Shown one piece after another: positions 15,155-27,821 of a DNA stretch of 28,374 bases (within the stretch, counting starts at the first letter, position 1; each line of letters begins with the position of its first letter). Below the pieces are notes generated by a model. That model had not been told where the DNA came from. It was given only the letters and a program-made list of their open reading frames with translations, and did no database searches. This DNA comes from Clostridia bacterium (lineage in GTDB: Bacteria > Bacillota_E > RBS10-35 > JAJYVN01). A program made the translations under genes and the position numbers. The DNA lies in NCBI GenBank assembly GCA_027335515.1, contig DAHWHT010000208.1:1-28374 (forward strand), read 5' to 3'.

Positions 15155-15765
15155 GCAACCCACGCCTGCCCCCGGGACAGGTGGAGGCTGCCGGCTGGCC
15201 GGTCCTCCACCACGGGTCCGTCCCGGAGGGACCCGATCCCTGGCATCTGGATCTGGTCGGCGCGGTGGAGCGGCCAAGGCGCTGCACACTGGCGGAACTC
15301 GCCGGCCTGCAGGCGCGGACCCAAACGGCCGATGTCCATTGCGTCACCGGCTGGTCCGTGCTCGGACGGACGTGGACCGGAGCCGACTTCGCCCTCCTGG
15401 AATCCCTGGTGCGGCCCAAGCCGCAGGCACGCCACCTGATGGCCCACGCCGCAGGGGGCTGGTCCACCAACCTTGCGCTGGCCGACGCCCGCCGCCCGGG
15501 CGTGTCCGTCGTCTGGGCAACCGACGCTGCCCCGCTGCCGCGCGCCCACGGCGGACCCCTGCGGCTGCTCGTCCCCCACCTCTACTTCTGGAAGAGCTGC
15601 AAATGGCTCGTGGCCCTGGAGTGGATGGTCGACGACCGCCCCGGCTTTTGGGAGCGCGATACCGTCTACACCGAGATGGACCCGTGGCGGGCGGTGCGCG
15701 GCCGGCCGCTCGCCGAGGTTCTTCAATCGTCCCCGGCGTCACGGCGTTCGACCCGGACGCCGTGA
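15151..15765 (+). CDS. Sulfite-oxidase-like molybdopterin-dependent oxidoreductase
   Basis: A 204-residue protein of the Oxidored_molyb fold (COG2041, YedY/sulfite-oxidase superfamily), the short cytosolic type without a signal peptide or dimerisation domain. The Mo-ligating cysteine is C64 in DVHCVTGWS. Other family blocks are WPVLHHGSVP near residue 16, AAGGWSTNL, HGGPLRLLVPHLYFWKSCKW (substrate and cofactor region) and DRPGFWERD. Its physiological substrate is not known for this subgroup. GTG 15151 overlaps the bioY stop by 4 bp (GTGA), implying coupled translation and biotin-responsive expression. The last codons, after about residue 190, overlap the end of the convergent TIM-barrel/DUF6624 gene by 43 bp and look non-homologous, a likely recent extension of the C-terminus. 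Confidence 0.85.
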   Translation: MSNPRLPPGQVEAAGWPVLHHGSVPEGPDPWHLDLVGAVERPRRCTLAELAGLQARTQTADVHCVTGWSVLGRTWTGADFALLESLVRPKPQARHLMAHAAGGWSTNLALADARRPGVSVVWATDAAPLPRAHGGPLRLLVPHLYFWKSCKWLVALEWMVDDRPGFWERDTVYTEMDPWRAVRGRPLAEVLQSSPASRRSTRTP

Positions 15766-17027
15766 GCCTCCAACTGGCGGATGTATTCGCCAAAGCCGCT
15801 CATCCGGGCCGCGGCGCGCCGGCCGTCGATGCCGGATTCGTCCTCGATCGGAAACGGCCGCCAGCCGCCGTCGTCGGTGGATTGGAACTGGGTGCCGTAG
15901 CGCTGCGGGCGGCCCTCCAGCACCGCGAGGCGGTCCTCCAGGAACGCCAGGTGGCTGGCCTCCGCCTCTTCCCGCTGCACGGCGACGTCCAACAGGTCCC
16001 GCACCCGCCGAAACAGCGCCCAATCCACCCCGACGTGCTGCACCAGCAGCCAGGCGGCGGCGGCGCCGTCCCGCCCCACCAGGGACCAGCCGGGCCAGCC
16101 GTGCGCCGCAAGCACCTCATCCAGGCGGGCCCGCTGCGCCGGGGTGAGGGCGCGGGATCCGGCCCGGTCGCGCAGGGGCTTGGCCAGGGCCAGCAACTCG
16201 GCGCGCAGCGCCTCGTCGCGCGGCCGCAGCGTCAGGGTGTCGGTGAGGGCGCGGCGCACCCCGACGAACGCCGCACGGGCCAAGGCGGATCCGCTGCGCC
16301 GCCGCGACCCGGACCCCGGAGCGGCCGCCACCGAAAGCCAGCCCTGGTAGCCGGCCCGCACCAGCGCGCGCACCGCATCGACGACCAGCGCGGAGTCCCG
16401 CGCGGGCAGGCGGCGGTCGGCATCCGTCAGCTCCGCCGGCGGCACACCGTCCGGCGCCCCGCTGACGCGCGTCAGCAAGACTCGGTCCGCCGGCAGCGTC
16501 GCCAGGCGGTCCACGGCCACACCGGCGCGCCAACAGGTAAAGGCGTCCACGGCCACCCCCACATCGGGACGGCCGCTGGCCAGCGCCACCTCCACCAGCC
16601 GTTCCGGCGTGCCCATGGGGCCGTCCACCGCCAACTCCAGCGCGACCCGGCCGCCGGCGGGCAGCAGCCGCGCGGCGAGCCCTGCGGCGCGCTCGGCCAG
16701 CCGCCGCCGCGCCTGCGCCCAGGCGAGGCCCTTCAGCTCGGCGGGGTCGGCGCGCACCACCACGACCGTCGGGAAAAAGTGGGGGCCCACCCACGCCGCG
16801 AGCAGCCGGGCCGCCTGCGGCGCCTGCTCCGGATCCAGCGGCCCCAGCGCGGCCAGGAGGAGGCCGTGCCGCTCCAGGGCGCGCCGCACCGCGTCCTGCC
16901 CCTCACGGCCCGCGGCCGCCAGCGTCGGCCAATGCAGCTCCACGCCGGCAAACCCCCCGGCTGCCGCGGCCTCACAGTCTTCGCCCGGCGTCCGTTGCCC
17001 CTGCGTCCCGCCCCATGCCGCTCGCAC
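15723..17027 (-). CDS. Xylose-isomerase-like TIM barrel fused to a DUF6624-like domain
   Basis: A 434-residue, two-domain protein. Residues 1 to about 235 follow the sugar phosphate isomerase/epimerase (AP_endonuc_2) barrel: RAAWGGTQ strand, GFAGVELHW, a central LELAVDG strand, VGVAVDAFTCW, and a final GYQGWLSV. Some metal ligands usual in these enzymes are not obvious. Residues about 270-425 resemble DUF6624: LRDRAGSRALTPAQ, HGWPGWSLVGRDGAAAAWLLVQH, AFLEDRLAVLEGRPQRYGTQ, PFPIEDESGIDGRRAAARM. DUF6624 has no known activity. The fusion is unusual and suggests a metabolite-linked role. GTG 17027 was chosen from GGAGG 7 nt upstream and because the barrel begins there. It is divergent from the ABC ATPase gene and converges on the molybdopterin gene. 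Confidence 0.75.
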   Translation of the reverse strand: MRAAWGGTQGQRTPGEDCEAAAAGGFAGVELHWPTLAAAGREGQDAVRRALERHGLLLAALGPLDPEQAPQAARLLAAWVGPHFFPTVVVVRADPAELKGLAWAQARRRLAERAAGLAARLLPAGGRVALELAVDGPMGTPERLVEVALASGRPDVGVAVDAFTCWRAGVAVDRLATLPADRVLLTRVSGAPDGVPPAELTDADRRLPARDSALVVDAVRALVRAGYQGWLSVAAAPGSGSRRRSGSALARAAFVGVRRALTDTLTLRPRDEALRAELLALAKPLRDRAGSRALTPAQRARLDEVLAAHGWPGWSLVGRDGAAAAWLLVQHVGVDWALFRRVRDLLDVAVQREEAEASHLAFLEDRLAVLEGRPQRYGTQFQSTDDGGWRPFPIEDESGIDGRRAAARMSGFGEYIRQLEAHGVRVERRDAGDD

Positions 17028-17153
17028 CCTGCGCCCTCCCCATCCGACGGGACCCGCCGCCACGTCGACCGGTCCCGACAACCTTCTTTCTTCTTTCGGT
17101 CCGGCGGATCCCCGATCCTCCGATCCCGCCGCGCGGCCCCTTCCCAAAGCGGG

Positions 17154-17159
17154 TACGAT
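17154..17159 (+). promoter_or_regulatory. Possible -10 element of the ABC ATPase gene
   Basis: TACGAT in a GC-rich spacer, 28-46 bp before the two candidate ATPase start codons. No clear -35. The 160-bp divergent spacer (17028-17186) also holds three closely spaced GATCC units (17107-17126) and a pyrimidine-rich tract CTTCTTTCTTCTTT (about 17085-17098); either could be an operator, but nothing proves it. Confidence 0.3.
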
Positions 17160-17186
17160 TCTGGAAACTCGAAGCGGCCAGGGGCC

Positions 17187-17275
17187 ATGAAGCGGGGGCG
17201 GACCATGCGCGACGCTGTCCCGGCGATCGCCACCCAGGACCTTACCAAGGTATACCGTCAGTATCGCAGCCGTGG
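17187..17275 (+). pseudogene. ABC transporter ATP-binding protein, 5' fragment (interrupted by IS607-family element)
   Basis: Start and first strand of an ABC ATPase: ATQDLTKVYRQYRSRG, ending at the GG dinucleotide 17274-17275. LTKVYRQY is the N-terminal strand with the A-loop tyrosine that stacks on the ATP adenine. Two ATGs are in frame (17187 and 17205); the second gives the usual length. Past 17275 the frame runs into the insertion element and loses all similarity. Joining base 17275 to base 19765 restores the frame exactly (R-G-V-G-G-G-L-R), giving a protein of about 350 residues typical for the COG4586-like exporter ATPases. The gene is therefore split, not decayed, and the insertion looks recent. 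Confidence 0.88.
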
Positions 17276-17504
17276 TGTCAGCAGTTGCCCGGTTTGCCTG
17301 ACAAACCGCGACATCTGCCATTTGTGCCGCCCCTGCCGCAGGACCGGCCGTCAGGCCGGGGCCCGCTTCTGGCACCGAGGTCCGCGTGCCACGCGGCAGG
17401 GAGTCGCGATGCGCCTCTCGAGGCAAAGCCTCCGTGCCACTCACGCACCGCCAGCAACCAGCCCCACCACTGGTCAGCGCCTCCCGGCACTGACCGCAAG
17501 GGCA
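17276..17504 (-). ncRNA. Predicted omega-RNA (TnpB guide RNA) region
   Basis: 229 bp without a gene between the tnpB stop and the element end, the place where TnpB-associated omega-RNAs are encoded. It is rich in hairpins: GCCTC-TC-GAGGC (17413-17424), CCGCG/CGCGG (17382-17396), CCGGCC/GGCCGG (17344-17359) and the two terminal stems at 17276-17307. By analogy with known TnpB systems the scaffold would end at 17276 and the guide would be the adjoining ATPase sequence, minus strand from 17275 downward (CCACGGCTGCGATACTGACG). RNA existence and exact 5' end are inferred. Confidence 0.5.
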
Positions 17505-19079
17505 TCAGGCCGCAGGGGCATCCGTCGTTGACCTGACGTTGGCCCCCGCAACTGCGCCAGCCTTTCGGCCACGGCTTATTTCGGCCGCCCGCTTCTCCTG
17601 GGCGGTCGGGTACCGGAAGTTCCGGTCCCACTTCCGCTTGAGGTTCAGGGCCGCCACGATGTTCGCATCGCCCGTCCAGCCACAGTGCCCGCACCGGAAA
17701 CGGCTCGGATAGCCGCGCCCACCGGGAGAGAACCTCTCGCCCAGGTGGCTGCAGTGCGGGCAGGCTTGACTGGTCCAGGCAGGATTTCGTTCGACAACCA
17801 GGATCCCGTGACACACAGCGAGGTGCCGCACATGCGCCAGCACCTTGCCACGCAGCCAGTACGCGCGCTTGCGGTTCGTGCGCCGGCTCCAGGACAGGCC
17901 GTGTCCCGGGCGGTAGGGGCGTAGGTGCTCGAACACCAGCACCTGCAGCCCACAGGCCACCGCCCAGGTAACGATGGCGGCGGCGACCTGCCACGCCACC
18001 GCCGCATCGAGCCCCGCGATGTACCGCCACAGACCCCGGTTGCTGTGCTCGCCCTTGATGGGTCGGCCGCTGCGCTTCTGCCGCCGTGCAACCTTCTGCA
18101 ACACCTTCTCCCGTTTGGCGTTCTCGCGTCGGTGCCAGACGGTGCGGATCCCCCGGCAGGCAACGCCCTCCCATGCGGCAGCGGCGGCGCTGTCGGCGTT
18201 GAGATCGACGGTACCGACCTTCAGGTCCGGCTCCGCCCGCCGCCGATCCTCCGCCTTGCCCACGATGGGGGTACGCTTCTCGAATGGCACGTGCAGCCAC
18301 CACCCGTCGGGCTTATGCAGCAACGTCGGCGATTGGGCGACCCACACACCCGGTGTCGGTTGCAGGGCCCTCTTTTCGGTGTCCGTCCGCTTCGTGCGGC
18401 CTTCGGCCGCCATCCGCTGGTTCTGCTCGGTCCGCAGGGCGGTGATGCGTGCCCGCTCCTGGTCCGACTGCTCCAGCATCTCGGCAAAGTACGGCGGCGC
18501 CTGTACCGGGTAGTTCATCCACTCCCATCGCCGTCCGCTGAACACCTTCAGTCGTACAAACCCATGCCGGTAGTCCCCCAGATGCACCTGCGCCATCTGT
18601 GCGTAGGTAGTCAGATGGGGGTGAGGCTGCGGCGGCTTCGGCGCCCGACCGCGCCTCCTGGGATCGGTCTTCTCCCACCGTCGCAGGTTGGACAGGTAGC
18701 TTTGCACGGCGCCGGATGCGGCGTGGATGGCCGCCCGCCGCAGGTCGCGGGGCGCACCGGAACAAACCGCATCGAAGGAGCGGACCGGCGCGATGTCCGG
18801 GTGCGCCGCCGTGGCGACGGTCACAGACTCCGCCCAGGTCAGCCGGTCCTTCTCGTCCCAGGGCTTCTCGCGGGTCTCCCCGGTCTTGGGGTCCACCTCG
18901 GTCTTGCGCTGCTCGTATACGCCCGGGTGGTCGAGGAACAGGTCGGTGTAGAAAGTGACGGCGCGGTCCCAGACCCCCACGGTGGCGGGCAAGGGCGCCA
19001 GCTTGGCAGCGTTGGTGTTCGGCGCCAAGCGCAGGCGAATCGTGCGGATGGCCGGTACGCACTTGTGCTCAGCCAACAA
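17505..19079 (-). CDS. tnpB: TnpB, RNA-guided RuvC nuclease of an IS607-family element
   Basis: A 524-residue OrfB/TnpB protein, longer than the roughly 400 residues of compact IS605 TnpBs. RuvC catalytic acids are all present: D292 (TVDLNADS), E384 (VFEHLRP) and D471 (GDANIVAALNL). A four-cysteine zinc finger lies between the last two (CPHC ... CGHC), preceded by NPAWTSQACP. The N-terminal half carries the WED/REC-like region. A basic tail of about 45 residues follows RuvC-III. TnpB nucleases cut unoccupied target copies using a guide from the element end and so help keep the element. The start is TTG 19079 (or 19076), 9 nt after GGAGG and overlapping tnpA by 11 bp, so translation is probably coupled. 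The frame is open further upstream only as a shadow of tnpA. Confidence 0.92.
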   Translation of the reverse strand: MLAEHKCVPAIRTIRLRLAPNTNAAKLAPLPATVGVWDRAVTFYTDLFLDHPGVYEQRKTEVDPKTGETREKPWDEKDRLTWAESVTVATAAHPDIAPVRSFDAVCSGAPRDLRRAAIHAASGAVQSYLSNLRRWEKTDPRRRGRAPKPPQPHPHLTTYAQMAQVHLGDYRHGFVRLKVFSGRRWEWMNYPVQAPPYFAEMLEQSDQERARITALRTEQNQRMAAEGRTKRTDTEKRALQPTPGVWVAQSPTLLHKPDGWWLHVPFEKRTPIVGKAEDRRRAEPDLKVGTVDLNADSAAAAAWEGVACRGIRTVWHRRENAKREKVLQKVARRQKRSGRPIKGEHSNRGLWRYIAGLDAAVAWQVAAAIVTWAVACGLQVLVFEHLRPYRPGHGLSWSRRTNRKRAYWLRGKVLAHVRHLAVCHGILVVERNPAWTSQACPHCSHLGERFSPGGRGYPSRFRCGHCGWTGDANIVAALNLKRKWDRNFRYPTAQEKRAAEISRGRKAGAVAGANVRSTTDAPAA

Positions 19080-19710
19080 GCCCCTCCGCCTCCTTGGCCG
19101 CGTCCTTGACCTTCCGCCGAAACTGTTGTGAGCGGCTGCCGTAAAGCCGCGCCGCAAAGCAAGTGACGATGGCCAGCATGTCGACCACCAATTCCTGCGC
19201 GGCGTCGGTCGCGACCGGACCATCGAGCACCTCGACGCGGACACCGTGTGCCACCAGGGCCTCGACGAGGTAGGCGAACCCGAAGCGGGCCAGGCGATCC
19301 TTGAACTCGATCCGCACCACGTCGATCTCGCCGCTCGCCGCCAGGCGGAACAGGCGCCGCAAGCCGCGCCGTTTCTCGTTCAACCCGGATGCTTGCTCGC
19401 TCACCGTGGTGACAAGTTCGTATCCTTTGCCGGCCGCCGCCGCCGCCAGCCGTTCCTTCTGGCGCTCCAAGTTGCCGGCCTCGGCCTGCTTGTTGGAGGA
19501 GACACGGGCATAGATGGCGCAACGCTGTGCAGATCCACGTCTGCCCCTGAGCAGGGCATCGACCTGCCTGGCCGAGAACCGGCGCTGGCCGGAGGCCAGG
19601 CGCGTCATCGGCCGCAAACGGCCGGCGGCCTCCCAACGGTAGACCGTGCGGACGGAAATGCCGAGACGTTTCGCCGTTTGCCCCGTAGAGATCACCTGTT
19701 CGCACGCCAT
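19069..19710 (-). CDS. tnpA: TnpA, IS607-type serine recombinase
   Basis: A 213-residue transposase with the IS607 domain order: an N-terminal MerR-like DNA-binding domain (STGQTAKRLGISVRTVYRWEAAGRL, then RRFSARQVDALL) followed by a resolvase-type catalytic domain. The catalytic serine is S71 in YARVSSNKQ. Conserved resolvase arginines appear in LERQKERL and FKDRLARFG, and the tail is helical and basic. This class works by strand exchange at a 2-bp core, usually GG, through a circular intermediate and without target duplication, which agrees with the junctions seen here. ATG 19710 has AAGGG close upstream. It is intact, with no frameshift. Confidence 0.94.
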   Translation of the reverse strand: MACEQVISTGQTAKRLGISVRTVYRWEAAGRLRPMTRLASGQRRFSARQVDALLRGRRGSAQRCAIYARVSSNKQAEAGNLERQKERLAAAAAGKGYELVTTVSEQASGLNEKRRGLRRLFRLAASGEIDVVRIEFKDRLARFGFAYLVEALVAHGVRVEVLDGPVATDAAQELVVDMLAIVTCFAARLYGSRSQQFRRKVKDAAKEAEGLVG

Positions 19711-19716
19711 GCCCTT

Positions 19717-19744
19717 ATCATCTACCTTTGGCGGCCGATGTCAA
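19717..19744 (-). promoter_or_regulatory. Possible tnpA promoter at the element end
   Basis: On the minus strand a perfect TTGACA (19739-19744) is followed after 16 bp by GATGAT (19717-19722, 4 of 6 matches to TATAAT). Transcription would begin at or next to the tnpA ATG at 19710, giving a leaderless or nearly leaderless message. The promoter overlaps the CTACCTTT/AAAGGTAG inverted repeat, so recombinase binding could repress it. Confidence 0.4.
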
Positions 19745-19757
19745 GGGTTAAAGGTAG
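19722..19757. repeat. Inverted repeat at tnpA-proximal element end
   Basis: CTACCTTT (19722-19729) and AAAGGTAG (19750-19757) are perfect complements 20 bp apart, ending 5 bp inside the inferred boundary. IS607 elements lack long terminal inverted repeats, so this internal repeat is best read as a recombinase-binding or regulatory site. Confidence 0.6.
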
Positions 19758-19762
19758 CTCCC

Positions 19763-20746
19763 GGGGTTGGCGGCGGTTTGCGCGACCTTCTTGGGCGCCG
19801 GCACCGCGATATCGTGGCCGTCGACCACCTGACGCTGACGGTCGGCCCCGGCGAGCTCGTCGGCTACATCGGGGCCAACGGCGCCGGCAAATCCACCACG
19901 ATCAAGATGCTCACCGGCATCCTTGAGCCCACCTCCGGCGAGCTGCGGGTCAACGGCTACCACCCGCACCGCGAGCGGCGGGACTTTCTGCAGACCGTCG
20001 GCGTCGTCTTCGGTCAGCGCAGCCAGCTCTGGTGGGACATCGCGGTCCAGGAATCCTTCGGCCTGCTGCAGCGCATCTACCGCGTCGGCGACGACGACTA
20101 CCGCCGCGACTTCCTTGGCGAGACCGTGCCGCTCCTGGGGATCGAGGACCTGCTCCACGTGCCGGTGCGCAAGCTGTCCCTCGGTCAACGCATGCGCTGC
20201 GAGCTCGCCGCCGCACTGCTGCACCGCCCGCCGCTTTTGTTCCTGGACGAACCGACCATCGGCCTGGATACGGTCGTCAAGCTCCGCTTGCGGGAACGCC
20301 TGCGCGACCTCAACCGCCGTTATGGCACGACCGTGCTGCTGACCACCCACGACCTTGGCGACATCGAGGCCGTCTGCCCGCGCGTCGTCATGCTCGACCG
20401 GGGGCGCCTGCTGTTTGACGGCTCGCTCGCCTCGCTGCGCGGACGGTTCGCCGGGGGCCGCACCCTCCACCTGCGCTACGCCCGCCCACCCGACCAGACG
20501 GCCACGCTCGCCGAACTCGCCCGCCTCGGTTTGCAACCGCAGGGGATCTCGCCGCTGGAGGTCACCGCCCCCCTGCCGCCCGGGGGCCCCCCCGTCGCCG
20601 AGGTGGTGCGCCGCGCGTCCGCCCACGGTGAGGTCGAGGACGTTGAAGTGCGCCAACCCTCGGTCGAGTCGATCGTCGCCGCCATCTACGGCGGGTCTGC
20701 CACCCTGCCGCCGCCCGCAGCCGCCGCCGAAACCCCCGACGCCTGA
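19763..20746 (+). pseudogene. ABC transporter ATP-binding protein, main 3' fragment (COG4586-like)
   Basis: The larger part of the interrupted ATPase. Walker A GANGAGKSTT, Q-loop VVFGQRSQLWWD, signature LSLGQRMRCE, Walker B LLFLDEP with D-loop IGLD, and H-switch TTHD are all intact. QRSQLWWD and TIGLDTVVKLRLRE are hallmarks of the ATPase subgroup that partners ABC-2 permeases like those at 25130 and 25929. After the ATPase core comes a C-terminal regulatory-type extension of about 90 residues. The element supplies an in-frame ATG at 19709 (PLSSTFGGRCQGLKVAPG before the junction), so a 345-residue chimera could still be made. It would lack the first strand and the A-loop Tyr, and there is no good ribosome binding site. 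Listed as a disrupted gene; partial function is possible. Confidence 0.85.
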
Positions 20747-20854
20747 CCGACGCCGATCGCCCGCGACCGCGGTGGCGGCGGGGGCGACGCAAAGGCCGCC
20801 GCGCCGCAGGGCCGCGTGCCCGAGCGGCGAAGGGCATGGGACGGAGGCGATGGC

Positions 20855-21688
20855 ATGCGCTTTGCGGCCTGCAACGAGATGTTTCGCAACTGGCCACTGG
20901 ACCGCGCCTGTGCCGCCTGCGCCGCGGCCGGTTGCACCGGCATCGAGCTTGCGCCGTTCACGCTTGCGCCGGAGGGCGTAGACCACCTGGACGCGCAGGC
21001 GCGCGGGCGCATCCGCCAGACCGCCGCCGCGGCCGGCCTGACGGTCGTCGGCCTCCATTGGCTGTTGGTCGGTCCGGTCGGGCTCGGATTGACCGTCGAG
21101 GACGCGGCGGTGCGGGCGCGCACCGCCGCCTACCTCTGCGATCTGGTCGACTGCTGCGCCGACCTGGGTGGAGGCGTCCTGGTGCTCGGCTCGCCGCACC
21201 AGCGGAACCTGCCTCCCGGGATCGGAGAGGCCGAAGGAATGCGGCGGGCCGCGGCGACCCTGGCGCCCGCCGTTTTCCGCGCCCAGAGCTCGGGCGTTCG
21301 GTGGTGTCTGGAACCACTGCCCGCGCCGGAGACGAACTTCCTGCACACCTTGGACGCCTGCCTGGCGCTGGCGGACCTGCTGGGCGGCGGCCCAAGCGTC
21401 GGGGTGCAGCTCGACGTCAAGAGCCTCTGCGCCGAAGCGGGGGATCCGGCGGCGGCGATCCGCGGCCACGCGGCCGCCGCTGCGCGCTTCGGCCACCTGC
21501 ACCTGCAGGGCCGGGCCGGCGGTCCGCCCGACGACGCGGTGGCGTGGGGCGACCTCTGGGCCGCCCTGGGTGAAGTGGGCTACGACGGCTGGGGCTCCCT
21601 GGAGGTCTTCACGCCGGCCCAGGATCCCGCCGCCATGGTCCAGGCGGCCGTGGCGCGCCTGACCGCGGCGGGCGCTCCAAGGTCCTGA
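20855..21688 (+). CDS. Sugar phosphate isomerase/epimerase-like TIM barrel protein
   Basis: A 277-residue single-domain xylose-isomerase-like (AP_endonuc_2) barrel. Typical blocks are MRFAACNEMF at strand 1, GCTGIELAPF, GLTVVGLHWLL, GGGVLVLGSP, VRWCLEPLPAPETNF (metal-ligand Glu), VGVQLDVKSL (Asp), FGHLHLQGRAGGPPDD (His) and WGSLEVF (Glu near the end). The four metal-ligand positions look kept, so an active isomerase or epimerase is likely; 3-keto-sugar, inosose or hydroxypyruvate-type substrates are all possible. ATG 20855 has GGAGG 8 nt upstream. It is 108 bp after the ATPase fragment and 58 bp before the IolB-like gene, so it is probably part of the long plus-strand run. Confidence 0.88.
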   Translation: MRFAACNEMFRNWPLDRACAACAAAGCTGIELAPFTLAPEGVDHLDAQARGRIRQTAAAAGLTVVGLHWLLVGPVGLGLTVEDAAVRARTAAYLCDLVDCCADLGGGVLVLGSPHQRNLPPGIGEAEGMRRAAATLAPAVFRAQSSGVRWCLEPLPAPETNFLHTLDACLALADLLGGGPSVGVQLDVKSLCAEAGDPAAAIRGHAAAAARFGHLHLQGRAGGPPDDAVAWGDLWAALGEVGYDGWGSLEVFTPAQDPAAMVQAAVARLTAAGAPRS

Positions 21689-22664: not shown

Positions 22665-23465
22665 ATGCTGGGTCTTGTCACCTACAACCTCGCCCGCGGC
22701 TGGGACCTCGACACCCTGCTGGAGCGTTGCGGGGCGACCGGCTTTGACGCGGTGGAACTGCGCGTCGACCACGCCCACGGGGTGGGCCCCCACCTCGATC
22801 CGGCCGCCCGGCGCGAGGTGCGCCGACGCTTTGACGCCGGCGCCGTCCGCCTGGTCGGCCTGGGGACCACCTGCGAATACCACGCGCTGGAAGCCGAGAC
22901 GGTGGCGGAAAACGTGCGCCGCACCGAAGCCTGGATCGACCTGGCCGCCGACCTCGGCTGCCCGGGGGTGAAGGTGCGGCCCAACGGGCACCAGGAGGCG
23001 GCCGGCGTGCCGCGCCAGCATACCCTGCAGCAGATCGGCCGCGCCCTGGCGCGCTGTGCCGCCTATGGCGAGCAACGCGGGGTCGCCGTGCGTCTGGAGA
23101 TGCACGGCGCCGTCGCACAGGCGCAAGACATCGCGGCGATCGTGCGCGCGGCCGACCACCCCGCACTGCGGGTGTGCTGGAACTGCAACCCCTGCGACGT
23201 GTGCGACGGCTCGGTGGCGGCGGCGTTCGCCCGGGTATGCGACCGCATCGGCCTGGTGCACATTCAGGAGTTGTGGAACCCCGCCTACCCCTGGGCGGAA
23301 CTCTTCGACCTGCTCGCGCAGTGCGGCTACCAGGGCCCCTGTCTGGCCGAGATCCCGGAAAGCGCCGAACCCGTCCGGCTGATGCGGTACTACCGAGCCC
23401 TGTATGCGGCGTTGCAGCCGGCAACGCGGCAGGGCGACCACCGCGGAGCCCTGGCGGCTGGGTGA
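22665..23465 (+). CDS. Second sugar isomerase/epimerase-like TIM barrel protein
   Basis: A 266-residue AP_endonuc_2-type barrel of a different subgroup from the one at 20855. Strand 1 is GLVTYNLARGWDLD, then GFDAVELRVDHAHG, VGLGTTCEYHA, CPGVKVRPNG, VRLEMHG (metal Glu), VCWNCNPCDV (Asn/Asp position), IGLVHIQELW (His) and CLAEIPES (final Glu). The WNCNPxD block places it in a subgroup often found beside glycan-breakdown genes; the reaction is unknown. Five cysteines, three of them in a cluster (CWNCNPCDVC), are notable. ATG 22665 has AAAGGGGG upstream. It lies 99 bp after iolB and 100 bp before the DUF6807 gene. Confidence 0.88.
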   Translation: MLGLVTYNLARGWDLDTLLERCGATGFDAVELRVDHAHGVGPHLDPAARREVRRRFDAGAVRLVGLGTTCEYHALEAETVAENVRRTEAWIDLAADLGCPGVKVRPNGHQEAAGVPRQHTLQQIGRALARCAAYGEQRGVAVRLEMHGAVAQAQDIAAIVRAADHPALRVCWNCNPCDVCDGSVAAAFARVCDRIGLVHIQELWNPAYPWAELFDLLAQCGYQGPCLAEIPESAEPVRLMRYYRALYAALQPATRQGDHRGALAAG

Positions 23466-25129: not shown

Positions 25130-25921
25130 GTGGCCGTGTTCTGGGCGATGGCCCGGCTGCGTTTCCTGACCATGCTCGCCTACCGCCTCAACTACTGGAG
25201 CGGGGTCCTGACCTACACGGTCTACATCGGCGGCTATTACTACATCTGGCGCGCCGTCTACGCAGGGCGCGCCTCGGTCGCCGGCATGTCGATCGACGCC
25301 ATGGTCACCTACCTCGCGGTGGCGTGGATGACCCGGGCCTTCACCTACAACAACCTGGACGCCGATATCGAAGAAGAGGTCCGCAGCGGCCTGGTGGCGG
25401 TGCAGTTGCTGCGCCCGTACCCGTACGTCGTCGGCAAGTTGTGGTCGGCTGGGGGCGAGGCGATCTTTCGCCTGGTATTCTGGATGCTGCCCGGCATGGT
25501 CGTGGCCGCCTTCCTCTTCCCGGTGCACCTGCCGACCCGCCCCGCGACCTACGCCGTCTGGACCGCGTCGGCGGCCTGCGCCTTCCTCGTCAACGCCCAG
25601 TTGAATGCCGCCTTCGGACTCTTTGCGTTCTCCTTGCAAAACGCCCGGGGGATCCGCTGGGCCAAGACCCGCCTGGTCGACCTCTTGTCGGGCGTGTACC
25701 TGCCGCTGGCCTTCTTCCCGACGGCGGCAAGGCAGGTGATGGCCTGGCTCCCGTTCCGCGACATCGCCTACGTCCCCGCGGCCATCTTCACCGGGTCCAT
25801 CCCGCCCGCCCAGGCCGCGGCGGCCGTGGCGGGCCAGGCCGCCTGGGTAGTCGGCATGGCGCTGTTGGTGGCGTTCTTCTGGCGCCGATTGCGGCGGGTT
25901 CTCTTGGTCCAAGGGGGGTGA
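25130..25921 (+). CDS. ABC-2 type exporter permease 1 (COG4587-like)
   Basis: A 263-residue membrane protein with about six helices. Features of this ABC-2 subgroup are the N-terminal FLTMLAYRLNYWSGVLTYTVYIGGYYYIW, here split by the first helix; the cytoplasmic stretch DADIEEEVRSGLVAVQLLRPYPY, a helix that contacts the ATPase; and the later FFPTAARQVMAWLPF...FTGSI block. With the adjacent permease and the interrupted ATPase it makes a heterodimeric exporter-type set of unknown substrate. GTG 25130 is chosen; ATG 25148 is possible. It is separated from permease 2 by 7 bp. Confidence 0.88.
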   Translation: MAVFWAMARLRFLTMLAYRLNYWSGVLTYTVYIGGYYYIWRAVYAGRASVAGMSIDAMVTYLAVAWMTRAFTYNNLDADIEEEVRSGLVAVQLLRPYPYVVGKLWSAGGEAIFRLVFWMLPGMVVAAFLFPVHLPTRPATYAVWTASAACAFLVNAQLNAAFGLFAFSLQNARGIRWAKTRLVDLLSGVYLPLAFFPTAARQVMAWLPFRDIAYVPAAIFTGSIPPAQAAAAVAGQAAWVVGMALLVAFFWRRLRRVLLVQGG

Positions 25922-25928
25922 ACCGCGC

Positions 25929-26792
25929 GTGGCCGTCATCGGGGCCCCAACCCGCGCCGGGCGGGTGCTGCCGAGCTACGCGCCGGCCGGCCCCGCGGGC
26001 CTGCGCCGCTACCTCGGGTTGACGGCCGGCTACCTCGGCCAGTATGTGCGCGGGCGCCTGGAGTATCGGGCGGACTTGCTGAGCGGGGTGCTGTCGGAGG
26101 TGTTCACGCAGGCGATCAGCCTCACCTTTTTGGCCGTGCTGTTCACCCACGTGCCGGCCCTGGCTGGCTGGTCCCACCCCGAGGTCTACGTCATGTATGC
26201 CTTCTTTCAGCTGTCCTGGGGCCTGGCCGACAGTTGCGCCGGCGGCGTGTGGGGCTTTGGCGAACGCTACATCGCCCGCGGCGAGCTCGACCGGCTGCTG
26301 CTGCGACCCGCGGCCCCCCTCTTCCAGTTGCTGCTGGAGGGCGTCGACCTGGAGTCCTTCCTGCAGGTGGGCGCGGGGGTGGTCATCCTGCTGTGGGCCA
26401 TGGGTGCGGCCCACGTCCACTGGAGGTGGTGGATGCCGCCGCTGATCGCCCTGTGGACCGCCACCGGGGCGGCGATCTTCCTCGGCGTCTTTCTCGCCCT
26501 GACCTGCGCCGCCTTCTGGGTGGACGGCCGGACCGGGGTGATGCCCCTGGTCTACAACACCACCGCCTACGGCCGCTACCCCGTCACGATCTACGGGCGC
26601 TGGCTGCGCATCCTGTTCAGCTATCTGCTGCCGTTTGCCTTCGTCGCCTTCTACCCCGCGGCCGCCCTGCTGCGACCGGCCGCCTACGTATCCTGGGGCG
26701 TGGGCGCCGTGCCCGCTGCGGCGGCCACCTGCGCCGTGGCGGCCCTCGTCTGGACCCGCGGCCTGCGGCGCTATCAGGGAACCGGATCCTGA
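25929..26792 (+). CDS. ABC-2 type exporter permease 2 (COG3694-like)
   Basis: A 287-residue membrane protein with about six helices, paired with the gene before it. Its N-terminal cytoplasmic part (LRRYLGLTAGYLGQYVRGRLEYRADLL, in short blocks) precedes helix 1. The motif YIARGELDRLLLRPAAPLFQLL corresponds to the ATPase-coupling helix (GELDxxLLRP is highly typical), and YPVTIYGRWLRILFSYLLPFAF marks the C-terminal half. GTG 25929 has AAGGGGGG close upstream. It is the last gene of the plus-strand run; a strong hairpin (26846-26870) follows. The substrates of this class are mostly unknown; the setting suggests a glycan, lipid or toxic sugar product. Confidence 0.88.
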   Translation: MAVIGAPTRAGRVLPSYAPAGPAGLRRYLGLTAGYLGQYVRGRLEYRADLLSGVLSEVFTQAISLTFLAVLFTHVPALAGWSHPEVYVMYAFFQLSWGLADSCAGGVWGFGERYIARGELDRLLLRPAAPLFQLLLEGVDLESFLQVGAGVVILLWAMGAAHVHWRWWMPPLIALWTATGAAIFLGVFLALTCAAFWVDGRTGVMPLVYNTTAYGRYPVTIYGRWLRILFSYLLPFAFVAFYPAAALLRPAAYVSWGVGAVPAAAATCAVAALVWTRGLRRYQGTGS

Positions 26793-26887: not shown

Positions 26888-27631
26888 TCAGAGCAGCTTG
26901 ATCGCGCCCCAGCCGCTGTCGCTGTTCCAGTTGGTGTTGGTGCCCTGCCACATCAGCTGCCCGCTGCGCTTGGTCGCGCCCTTGCCCGGAAAGTCGACGC
27001 CGACGGTGAAGCCGACGTCGGTGCCCTTCTTCACGGTGGTGCCGAGGTTGCCCCACGGCATCGCGAGCAGGACCTGGTAGCCCGTGGATGTGGTGTGCTC
27101 CAGGGCGGTGGCGCCGCTGGTCGGCAGCTTGGCGTGGTCGCCGCCGAGCGTGCTGTTGGTGAGGCCGCCGCTGTTGACCAGGATCTGGCCGGTACCCTGC
27201 GGGTATGCGCCCGAGTGATCGTTGCTGCCGCTCAGATAGATCTCGACGGAATCGTCTTCCCACTGGTTGGTCGTGTTGGTGTTGATCACCGGGCGGCCCG
27301 TCACGACGTTCGCATAGATGTATAGGTCCTTGGCGGTGTATGCCGCCTTCCACTTCGCGCTGGTGCCGGATGGCGCGCTACCGATCACCGCCAGCGTAAT
27401 CGGGGTGCCCTTGATCCCAGCCCAGCACTTGCCGGCGATCGTATCCACGCCCGCCGTCGGCTCCAGGGGTGCCGTGCCGACCGCGCCCTTGGCCGCCGCA
27501 CCCGCGACGCACTTGCCGTTGGAGGCCGCCGCCGGCTTGGCCCCGCCCTTGGCACCGCAGCCCGCCATCGCCACCAGGAAACCGGCCGCCAGGGTCGCGC
27601 CGCCCATGCGCCTCAATAGGGTTGTAGCCAT
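26888..27631 (-). CDS. Lipoprotein with a CBM9-like sugar-binding domain
   Basis: A 247-residue exported protein. A basic start, a hydrophobic core and the lipobox MAGC (Cys25) give a lipid-anchored, extracellular protein. A low-complexity Gly/Ala/Lys linker follows. From about residue 65 comes a beta-sandwich domain with blocks typical of carbohydrate-binding family 9-like (DOMON-related) domains: KWKAAYTAKDLYIYANV, QWEDDSVEIYLSG, GYQVLLAMPWGNLG, DVGFTVGVDFPG and a final SGWGAIKL. In this family the WEDDSVEIY strand and later aromatics contact sugar and calcium. The Asn/Thr-rich surface is unlike its neighbours. ATG 27631 is the likely start (GGGAGA is upstream, somewhat far). It may deliver or sense sugars for the catabolic genes nearby. 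Confidence 0.85.
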   Translation of the reverse strand: MATTLLRRMGGATLAAGFLVAMAGCGAKGGAKPAAASNGKCVAGAAAKGAVGTAPLEPTAGVDTIAGKCWAGIKGTPITLAVIGSAPSGTSAKWKAAYTAKDLYIYANVVTGRPVINTNTTNQWEDDSVEIYLSGSNDHSGAYPQGTGQILVNSGGLTNSTLGGDHAKLPTSGATALEHTTSTGYQVLLAMPWGNLGTTVKKGTDVGFTVGVDFPGKGATKRSGQLMWQGTNTNWNSDSGWGAIKLL

Positions 27632-27821
27632 GGCTTCTTCATATCTCCCGTCGTCCGCCATGTTGCCGTCGGGCCGCCACCGTTTGTCGCCGGCACCCCT
27701 CCCCCCTCGCCGGGTCCAGCGGCACCAGCGAGCCGCGACGGCGCCGCCGGCCGGCAACGCCCGCCGCGTCGCAGCGTGCATGGCGGTTGGCGACCTGGAT
27801 CGGAATTCCTGCCGACGTTGG

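Follow-up and report, generated by a model that had tools for sequence, protein, structure and literature searches.

Where exactly does an insertion sequence begin and end once it has split a gene, and which bases does it share with the gene that it entered? This question is raised by a 28,374 nt contig of a Clostridia bacterium (DAHWHT010000208.1, assembly GCA_027335515.1; termed the window), in which the ATPase gene of an ABC-2 transporter is interrupted. It had been proposed that an IS607-family element occupies positions 17276 to 19762, that its exchange took place at a GG core (17274-17275 and 19763-19764), and that the flanks rejoin with no lost or gained base. We are confident that an IS607-family insertion sequence of about 2.49 kb, carried on the minus strand, splits the ATPase gene at codons 29-30 (counted from the ATG at 17187). 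However, comparison with related sequences indicates that this earlier placement of the element edges is most likely off by a few bases.

Both GG dinucleotides are indeed visible, and the right-hand one forms part of a GGGG run (19763-19766), so that it has three possible positions. The earlier join, from 17275 to 19765, is also in frame and reads RGVGGGLRDLL. To evaluate this junction, uninterrupted homologues were sought using only the ATPase remainder as the query, and thus no particular join was presupposed. Compared with these proteins the earlier join (CGTGGGGTTGG) is one residue short, and its claim to have lost no base is not confirmed. Specifically, the column that it leaves empty contains a residue in 118 of the 120 homologues listed (71 P, 18 S, 10 E, 8 A, 4 G, 4 K, 2 T and 1 Q; 2 gaps), and arginine precedes this column in 118 of the 120 (2 gaps). 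The closest uninterrupted homologues, P0241 (92% identity, YRQYRSRPGVGGG) and P0242 (90%, YRQYRSRPGVAGG), both read YRQYRSR-P-GV. An independent set of homologous loci gave a similar picture: 75 of 80 fetched loci were used, five with a match starting too far in being left out, and 68 are one residue longer than the earlier join, with seven at other offsets.

The missing proline corresponds to CCC 19760-19762, which is located directly upstream of GGG GTT and just outside the element. When this codon is retained as host sequence, the joined protein reads SRPGVGGG and receives the best score against each of four homologues tested. Against P0241, the join from 17273 to 19760 scores 1608, a join from 17271 to 19758 that keeps the CT scores 1601, the earlier join scores 1590, and a join based on a GG core on the other strand scores 92. 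These comparisons suggest an in-frame empty site of AGC-CGT-CCC-GGG-GTT (S R P G V), with its pre-insertion bases read back from the protein homologues.

The ends of sister elements provide a separate view of the same edges. The search for these elements began from a distant match and was extended to the order of that genome (G162), wherein 17 of 42 genomes carry TnpB matches. There are 24 matches, of which L102 and L108 are parts of a single element. Identity to the TnpB of the window reaches 63% across most of the protein, and 66% in one fragment of 135 residues. A scan for the element end on the tnpB side, the right end (RE), produced 25 rows; four were dropped as chance matches (L098, L103 at 668, L109 and L111), leaving 21 sites including the window. 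Read on the tnpA-to-tnpB strand, the RE terminates with CAC at 20 of the 21 sites, the window among them, and with CAT at one (L095). The longer terminus ACCAC occurs at 18 of the 21, again including the window, and the remaining three read ATCAC, ACCAT and GCCAC. The scan was not independent of the motif, because its pattern held ACCAC with up to three substitutions; no end was found by the scan in L091, L096 or L105, nor were the ends in genome G548. The bases that follow ACCAC vary among relatives (TA, TC, GC, CT, CA and others).

In the window the left end (LE) reads GGG-AG-CTACC and the RE reads GACACC-AC-GGCTG. Two relatives, L086 and L088, whose TnpB proteins are 63% and 61% identical to that of the window, read G-AG-CTTC and CACC-AC, and all three share the LE start GAGCT. 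The sister ends therefore assign GG 17274-17275 to the element, as the complement of ...GACACC-AC, and place the resumption of host sequence at 19760. The GGGG run likewise falls to the host as the codons GGG GTT. Consequently, neither the GG core nor the boundaries at 17276 and 19762 can be upheld: related elements end at other bases, an outcome that the original prediction had itself named as counting against it. The circle junction that it gave, ctccc-GG-tgtcag, falls as well, and a corrected circle would read ..AAAGGTAG-(C or G)T-GGTGTCAG... With the edges and empty site corrected (Table 1), the annotation is mended and read mapping can be aimed at the right junctions.

Genome G548, outside the scan, contributes three copies of one related IS607 element (L089, L103 and L107), with G-AC-TTACAC on the tnpA side and ATACC-AC on the tnpB side, so that the RE ends in CAC in all three. 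These copies, with AC at both ends, are a natural set for examining target choice. In genome G545, RE ends of the same kind are present on contigs without a matched TnpB (L123, L126 and L129), which may be contig-end fragments or short derivatives.

Table 1. Features of the element and the interrupted transporter locus, in window coordinates.
Feature	Position	Strand	Remarks and basis
IS607-family element, both end dinucleotides included	17272-19759	-	2488 bp; body 17274-19757
RE core AC	17272-17273		GT on + strand; sister ends, homologue frame
LE core AG	19758-19759		CT on + strand; sister ends, homologue frame
tnpA, IS607-type serine recombinase	19069-19710	-	213 aa
tnpB, RNA-guided-nuclease family	17505-19079	-	524 aa; TTG start
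Promoter-like site for tnpA	19717-19744	-	TTGACA-16-GATGAT; 10/12 matches
RE region downstream of tnpB, candidate guide-RNA (reRNA) scaffold	17272-17511	-	alignment, fold, covariation
Predicted guide: host sequence adjoining the RE end, inside the ATPase gene	17252-17271	-	by analogy with the IS607 TnpB guide layout (PMC10711439; PMC11061315)
ABC ATPase gene, 5' fragment	17187-17273	+	MKRGRTMRDAVPAIATQDLTKVYRQYRSR, counted from ATG 17187; homologues begin at the second Met
ABC ATPase gene, 3' part	19760-20746	+	begins at Pro codon CCC; ABC_tran 96.3 bits (cut-off 25); alignment to P0241/P0242
Frame open from ATG inside the element into the ATPase remainder	19709-20746	+	MPLSSTFGGRCQGLKVA + PGVGGGL...; ORF (open reading frame) listing starts the frame at GTG 19646
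ABC-2 permease gene	25148-25921	+	open; start uncertain; ABC2_membrane_6 58.1 bits (cut-off 22)
ABC-2 permease gene	25929-26792	+	open; ABC2_membrane_6 151.5 bits (cut-off 22)

Other parts of the original prediction survive this revision. Its assignment to the IS607 family, inserted within an ABC ATPase gene, is borne out by the TnpA model score and by Pfam matches. In an NCBIfam profile search TnpA scores 175.8 bits with NF033518 (transpos_IS607; cut-off 110). A HTH_17/MerR domain (residues 7-58) lies N-terminal to a Resolvase domain (65-203), which is the layout of this family, and the nearest solved structure by sequence is that of the ISC1926 TnpA (PDB 6dgc, 6.4e-33). TnpB matches Pfam PF07282 with 44.7 bits (cut-off 26.3), although it remains under the cut-off of the curated NCBIfam model NF040570 (74.6 versus 100), a point against the overall reading. 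Among nine aligned proteins D292 and E384 are invariant; the third aspartate (GDAN motif) is present yet not invariant, and the CxxC pairs are present. As read from these residues and the Pfam match, TnpB carries the RuvC D-E-D triad and the C-terminal zinc-finger domain. Both reading frames are open. The promoter-like pattern upstream of tnpA occurs once in 17000-20000, versus 0.1 +/- 0.3 times in shuffled sequences. Terminal inverted repeats were not found: no inverted 7- or 8-nt k-mer is common to the outer 123 nt of the LE and 127 nt of the RE, which share only 6-mers.

The claims that the element inserted without target duplication and that its empty site is in frame are likewise sustained. 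At most a two-base unit is shared between the junctions, and the frame of the protein homologues uses this unit once. Two further elements bear on the size of the unit. L088 interrupts what reads from the sequence as an ATPase-like gene, and of zero to four bases placed between its flanks only two maintain a long frame (149+151 codons in the stretch tried; 159+155 in a longer stretch). An uninterrupted 69% paralogue of this gene in the same genome (L131; G550:C200, the split copy being on G550:C370) has a gap-free alignment over the insertion site, where it encodes Asp (GAT). In L103, located by eye in a chemoreceptor-like gene, the longest frame is also obtained with two bases (199+161), and shorter frames are obtained with none. 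Not every element follows this count. Only in five of 12 elements is the common frame longest with two bases (the window, by one codon, and L088, L090, L094 and L100). Zero or three bases give far longer frames in L102 (114-115 versus 62) and slightly longer ones in L086 (73 versus 63), and the frames of L089 and L107 fail to discriminate between counts. Frames are short either way in the others, and many of these sites may lie outside genes.

The corrected edges expose a feature that is not expected of this family. Serine recombinases are thought to require identical two-base overlaps. The typical, though not defining, IS607 trait of matching GG at both ends and in the target is absent here: the LE carries AG, the RE carries AC, and the native pair is probably AC. 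For the window the native pair suggested by the Arg codon is (N)C, which would agree with the AC of the RE and not with the AG of the LE. Among 15 elements for which both ends were read, eight are AG/AC (LE/RE), six are AC/AC (three being the copies in one genome) and one is AA/AT; the RE ends of L102 and L095 in this count come from the RE-end scan, and L096, which has an LE and no RE, is left out. The base before the LE dinucleotide is G in all 16 elements, a count that is not independent because this G also served as an anchor, and C or G precedes that G in 15 of 16. According to earlier studies, IS607 elements insert at GG and carry GG at both termini (PMC6188088; PMC10711439), and a matching dinucleotide is spoken of for serine recombinases (PMC4058570). 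In the literature listings and paper passages searched, none describes IS607 elements whose end dinucleotides are unequal, an absence that is no proof.

Three points reduce the weight of the AG/AC pattern. The LE starts were picked by eye from sequence common with sister elements, and those of L081, L102 and L104 are weaker. The mismatch can be compared with native bases in only two cases, the window (Arg) and L088 (Asp), and exchange of D for E is common. Finally, the pre-insertion bases are deduced from the protein sequences of homologues. The mismatched ends are the sole mildly novel point of this study, and they depend on few cases with deduced pre-insertion bases.

How might unequal ends arise? 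TnpA would excise a circle and insert it at an (S)G-AC target, where S is C or G, by a two-base staggered serine-recombinase exchange. We place the mismatch at the LE junction because AG is found at the LE, in contrast to AC in the target and at the RE. The exchange would have tolerated this one-base mismatch, the LE would then have become fixed as AG, and the RE would keep AC. A circle with the AC of the RE on one strand and the complement of the LE AG on the other would meet an AC target perfectly at the RE junction and be mismatched only at the LE. Such a circle would lead one to expect an RE that stays the same and an LE that varies, which is the pattern among the elements read. TnpB, with an RE-derived RNA, would recognize the empty site. 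We offer the circle with a heteroduplex core tentatively, at somewhat short of an even chance; on excision, one daughter would regain the host base and the other would keep a point change, so that a one-base difference between the empty site and the TnpB target could arise. The one-base difference between the end dinucleotides would, if anything, make clean excision less certain. A clade with unequal ends would also show how far IS607 transposases tolerate mismatches, and whether one end is held constant by the guide-RNA scaffold.

The same AG/AC pattern could be unrelated to mechanism: the exchange would have used a matching AC core, and the LE base would reflect a later mutation or descent from an ancestral element. 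Matching ends do exist, given that six of the 15 elements are AC/AC, including the three copies in one genome. However, AG is present at the LE in eight of 15 elements, in relatives whose TnpB proteins are only 36-63% identical to that of the window, a distribution that a single late mutation would not give, and we consider this explanation rather unlikely. A plus-strand GG core, with the element at 17276-19762 and a host gene natively one codon short, would offer identical GG at both junctions along with the in-frame join. It would also demand the loss of a residue that 118 of 120 homologues possess, as do both of those with 90-92% identity, and the RE of relatives extends two bases past 17274. 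Moreover, on the tnpA-to-tnpB strand this core would read CC, versus GG in studied IS607 elements (PMC6188088 and PMC10711439; the strand is our reading), and we consider it highly improbable.

Equally little credence can be given to a GG core on the tnpA-to-tnpB strand (plus-strand CC 17270-17271 and 19760-19761) followed by a 4-bp loss, for example through CCGT-CCGT slippage. GG does follow ACCAC in the window, GGG precedes AGCTACC at the LE, and (G)GG is the known IS607 target (PMC6188088). But the bases after ACCAC vary in relatives, and the GG there is therefore most simply host sequence. In addition, this join shifts the frame to a stop at 51 aa, and the three G548 copies have AC on both sides, with CA, CG and GG as the next bases.

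The RE region downstream of tnpB may also encode an RNA. Seven aligned RE regions, including those of L122 and L123, beside which these searches gave no TnpB match, fold alike, with 92.2% of cells paired. In this fold 15 pairs show two-sided change, versus 8.7 +/- 1.7 in shuffled alignments and at most five when the structure is slid; one alignment served both for deriving the structure and for the covariation count. A further measure weighs against it, as further pair types do not exceed shuffles (33 versus 30.6; 87 of 500). The modelled fold fits a guide-RNA scaffold whose guide would be read from the ATPase gene, and a search of the window found no Rfam match for the region. A recurrent pairing in the fold joins CACCAC at the RE terminus to GUGGUG some 180-215 nt upstream, but its pairs lack covariation and it is not claimed; in single sequences 30 to 267 of 300 shuffles reached the observed value (with a faulty tie rule), and none stood out clearly.

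Known systems share parts of this arrangement. IS607 of H. pylori, IS1535 and ISC1926 have a helix-turn-helix plus serine-recombinase TnpA with TnpB downstream, and lack terminal inverted repeats and target duplication (PMC6188088); the window element differs in a core that is not GG, in ends of AG and AC, and in a probable G-AC target. ISXfa1 and RAGATH-18-associated IS607 TnpB elements similarly have tnpB followed by a structured RE RNA, with the guide taken from the RE flank (PMC10711439; PMC11061315). Their target-adjacent motifs are given there as GGG, or AGGAG/GAGGG, whereas the bases before the guide at the window empty site would be (S)GAC. The TnpB of the window has 524 aa versus roughly 330-433 aa in those elements (PMC11061315), and no Rfam match was found in the window. 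Group B IStrons also have an IS607-type ORF A and insert after a conserved 5' motif with a variable 3' flank, and CsISt1 uses AG rather than GG (PMC4227781). Group B IStrons carry a group I intron, and an IStron identity was rejected because the window has no match at gathering threshold to any Rfam family, including group I introns.

Relatives outside the searched order are sparse. Genome searches from other centres found TnpB in 0/4, 3/398, 0/80, 3/199 (the same three) and 0/72, and TnpA in 0/78 and 0/4. Viral contigs searched with TnpB and TnpA gave no relatives, and the element DNA had no match in plasmids. The TnpA protein matched 223 plasmid records, all below 60% identity. One unannotated plasmid record labelled Klebsiella pneumoniae (L085, NZ_CP061967.1; 441-1772 and 2597-4685) encodes a 51%-identical IS607 TnpA and, by eye, an IscB-like ORF; our impression is that it may be mislabelled or contaminating.

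In the interrupted gene, the last two bases of the 5' fragment are the dinucleotide common with the tnpB-side end of the element. Insertion removes the first 29 residues of the ATPase, including the first strand and the tyrosine that stacks on the adenine of ATP. The ATG at 19709, antisense to the tnpA start, could supply a fusion N-terminus for the truncated protein, and transcription of this frame could yield a product in which 17 residues derive from the element. The best NCBIfam name for the ATPase, drrA, is far under its cut-off (173.8 versus 312.45). By their open frames and Pfam matches both permease genes are intact, as had been claimed, and with the ABC_tran ATPase these two ABC2_membrane_6 permeases make up an ABC-2 transporter. 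Around the split transporter lie three xylose-isomerase-like TIM-barrel genes and a gene for a CBM9-domain protein (15723-17012, 20816-21688, 22665-23465 and 26888-27781), which perhaps form a sugar-related locus.

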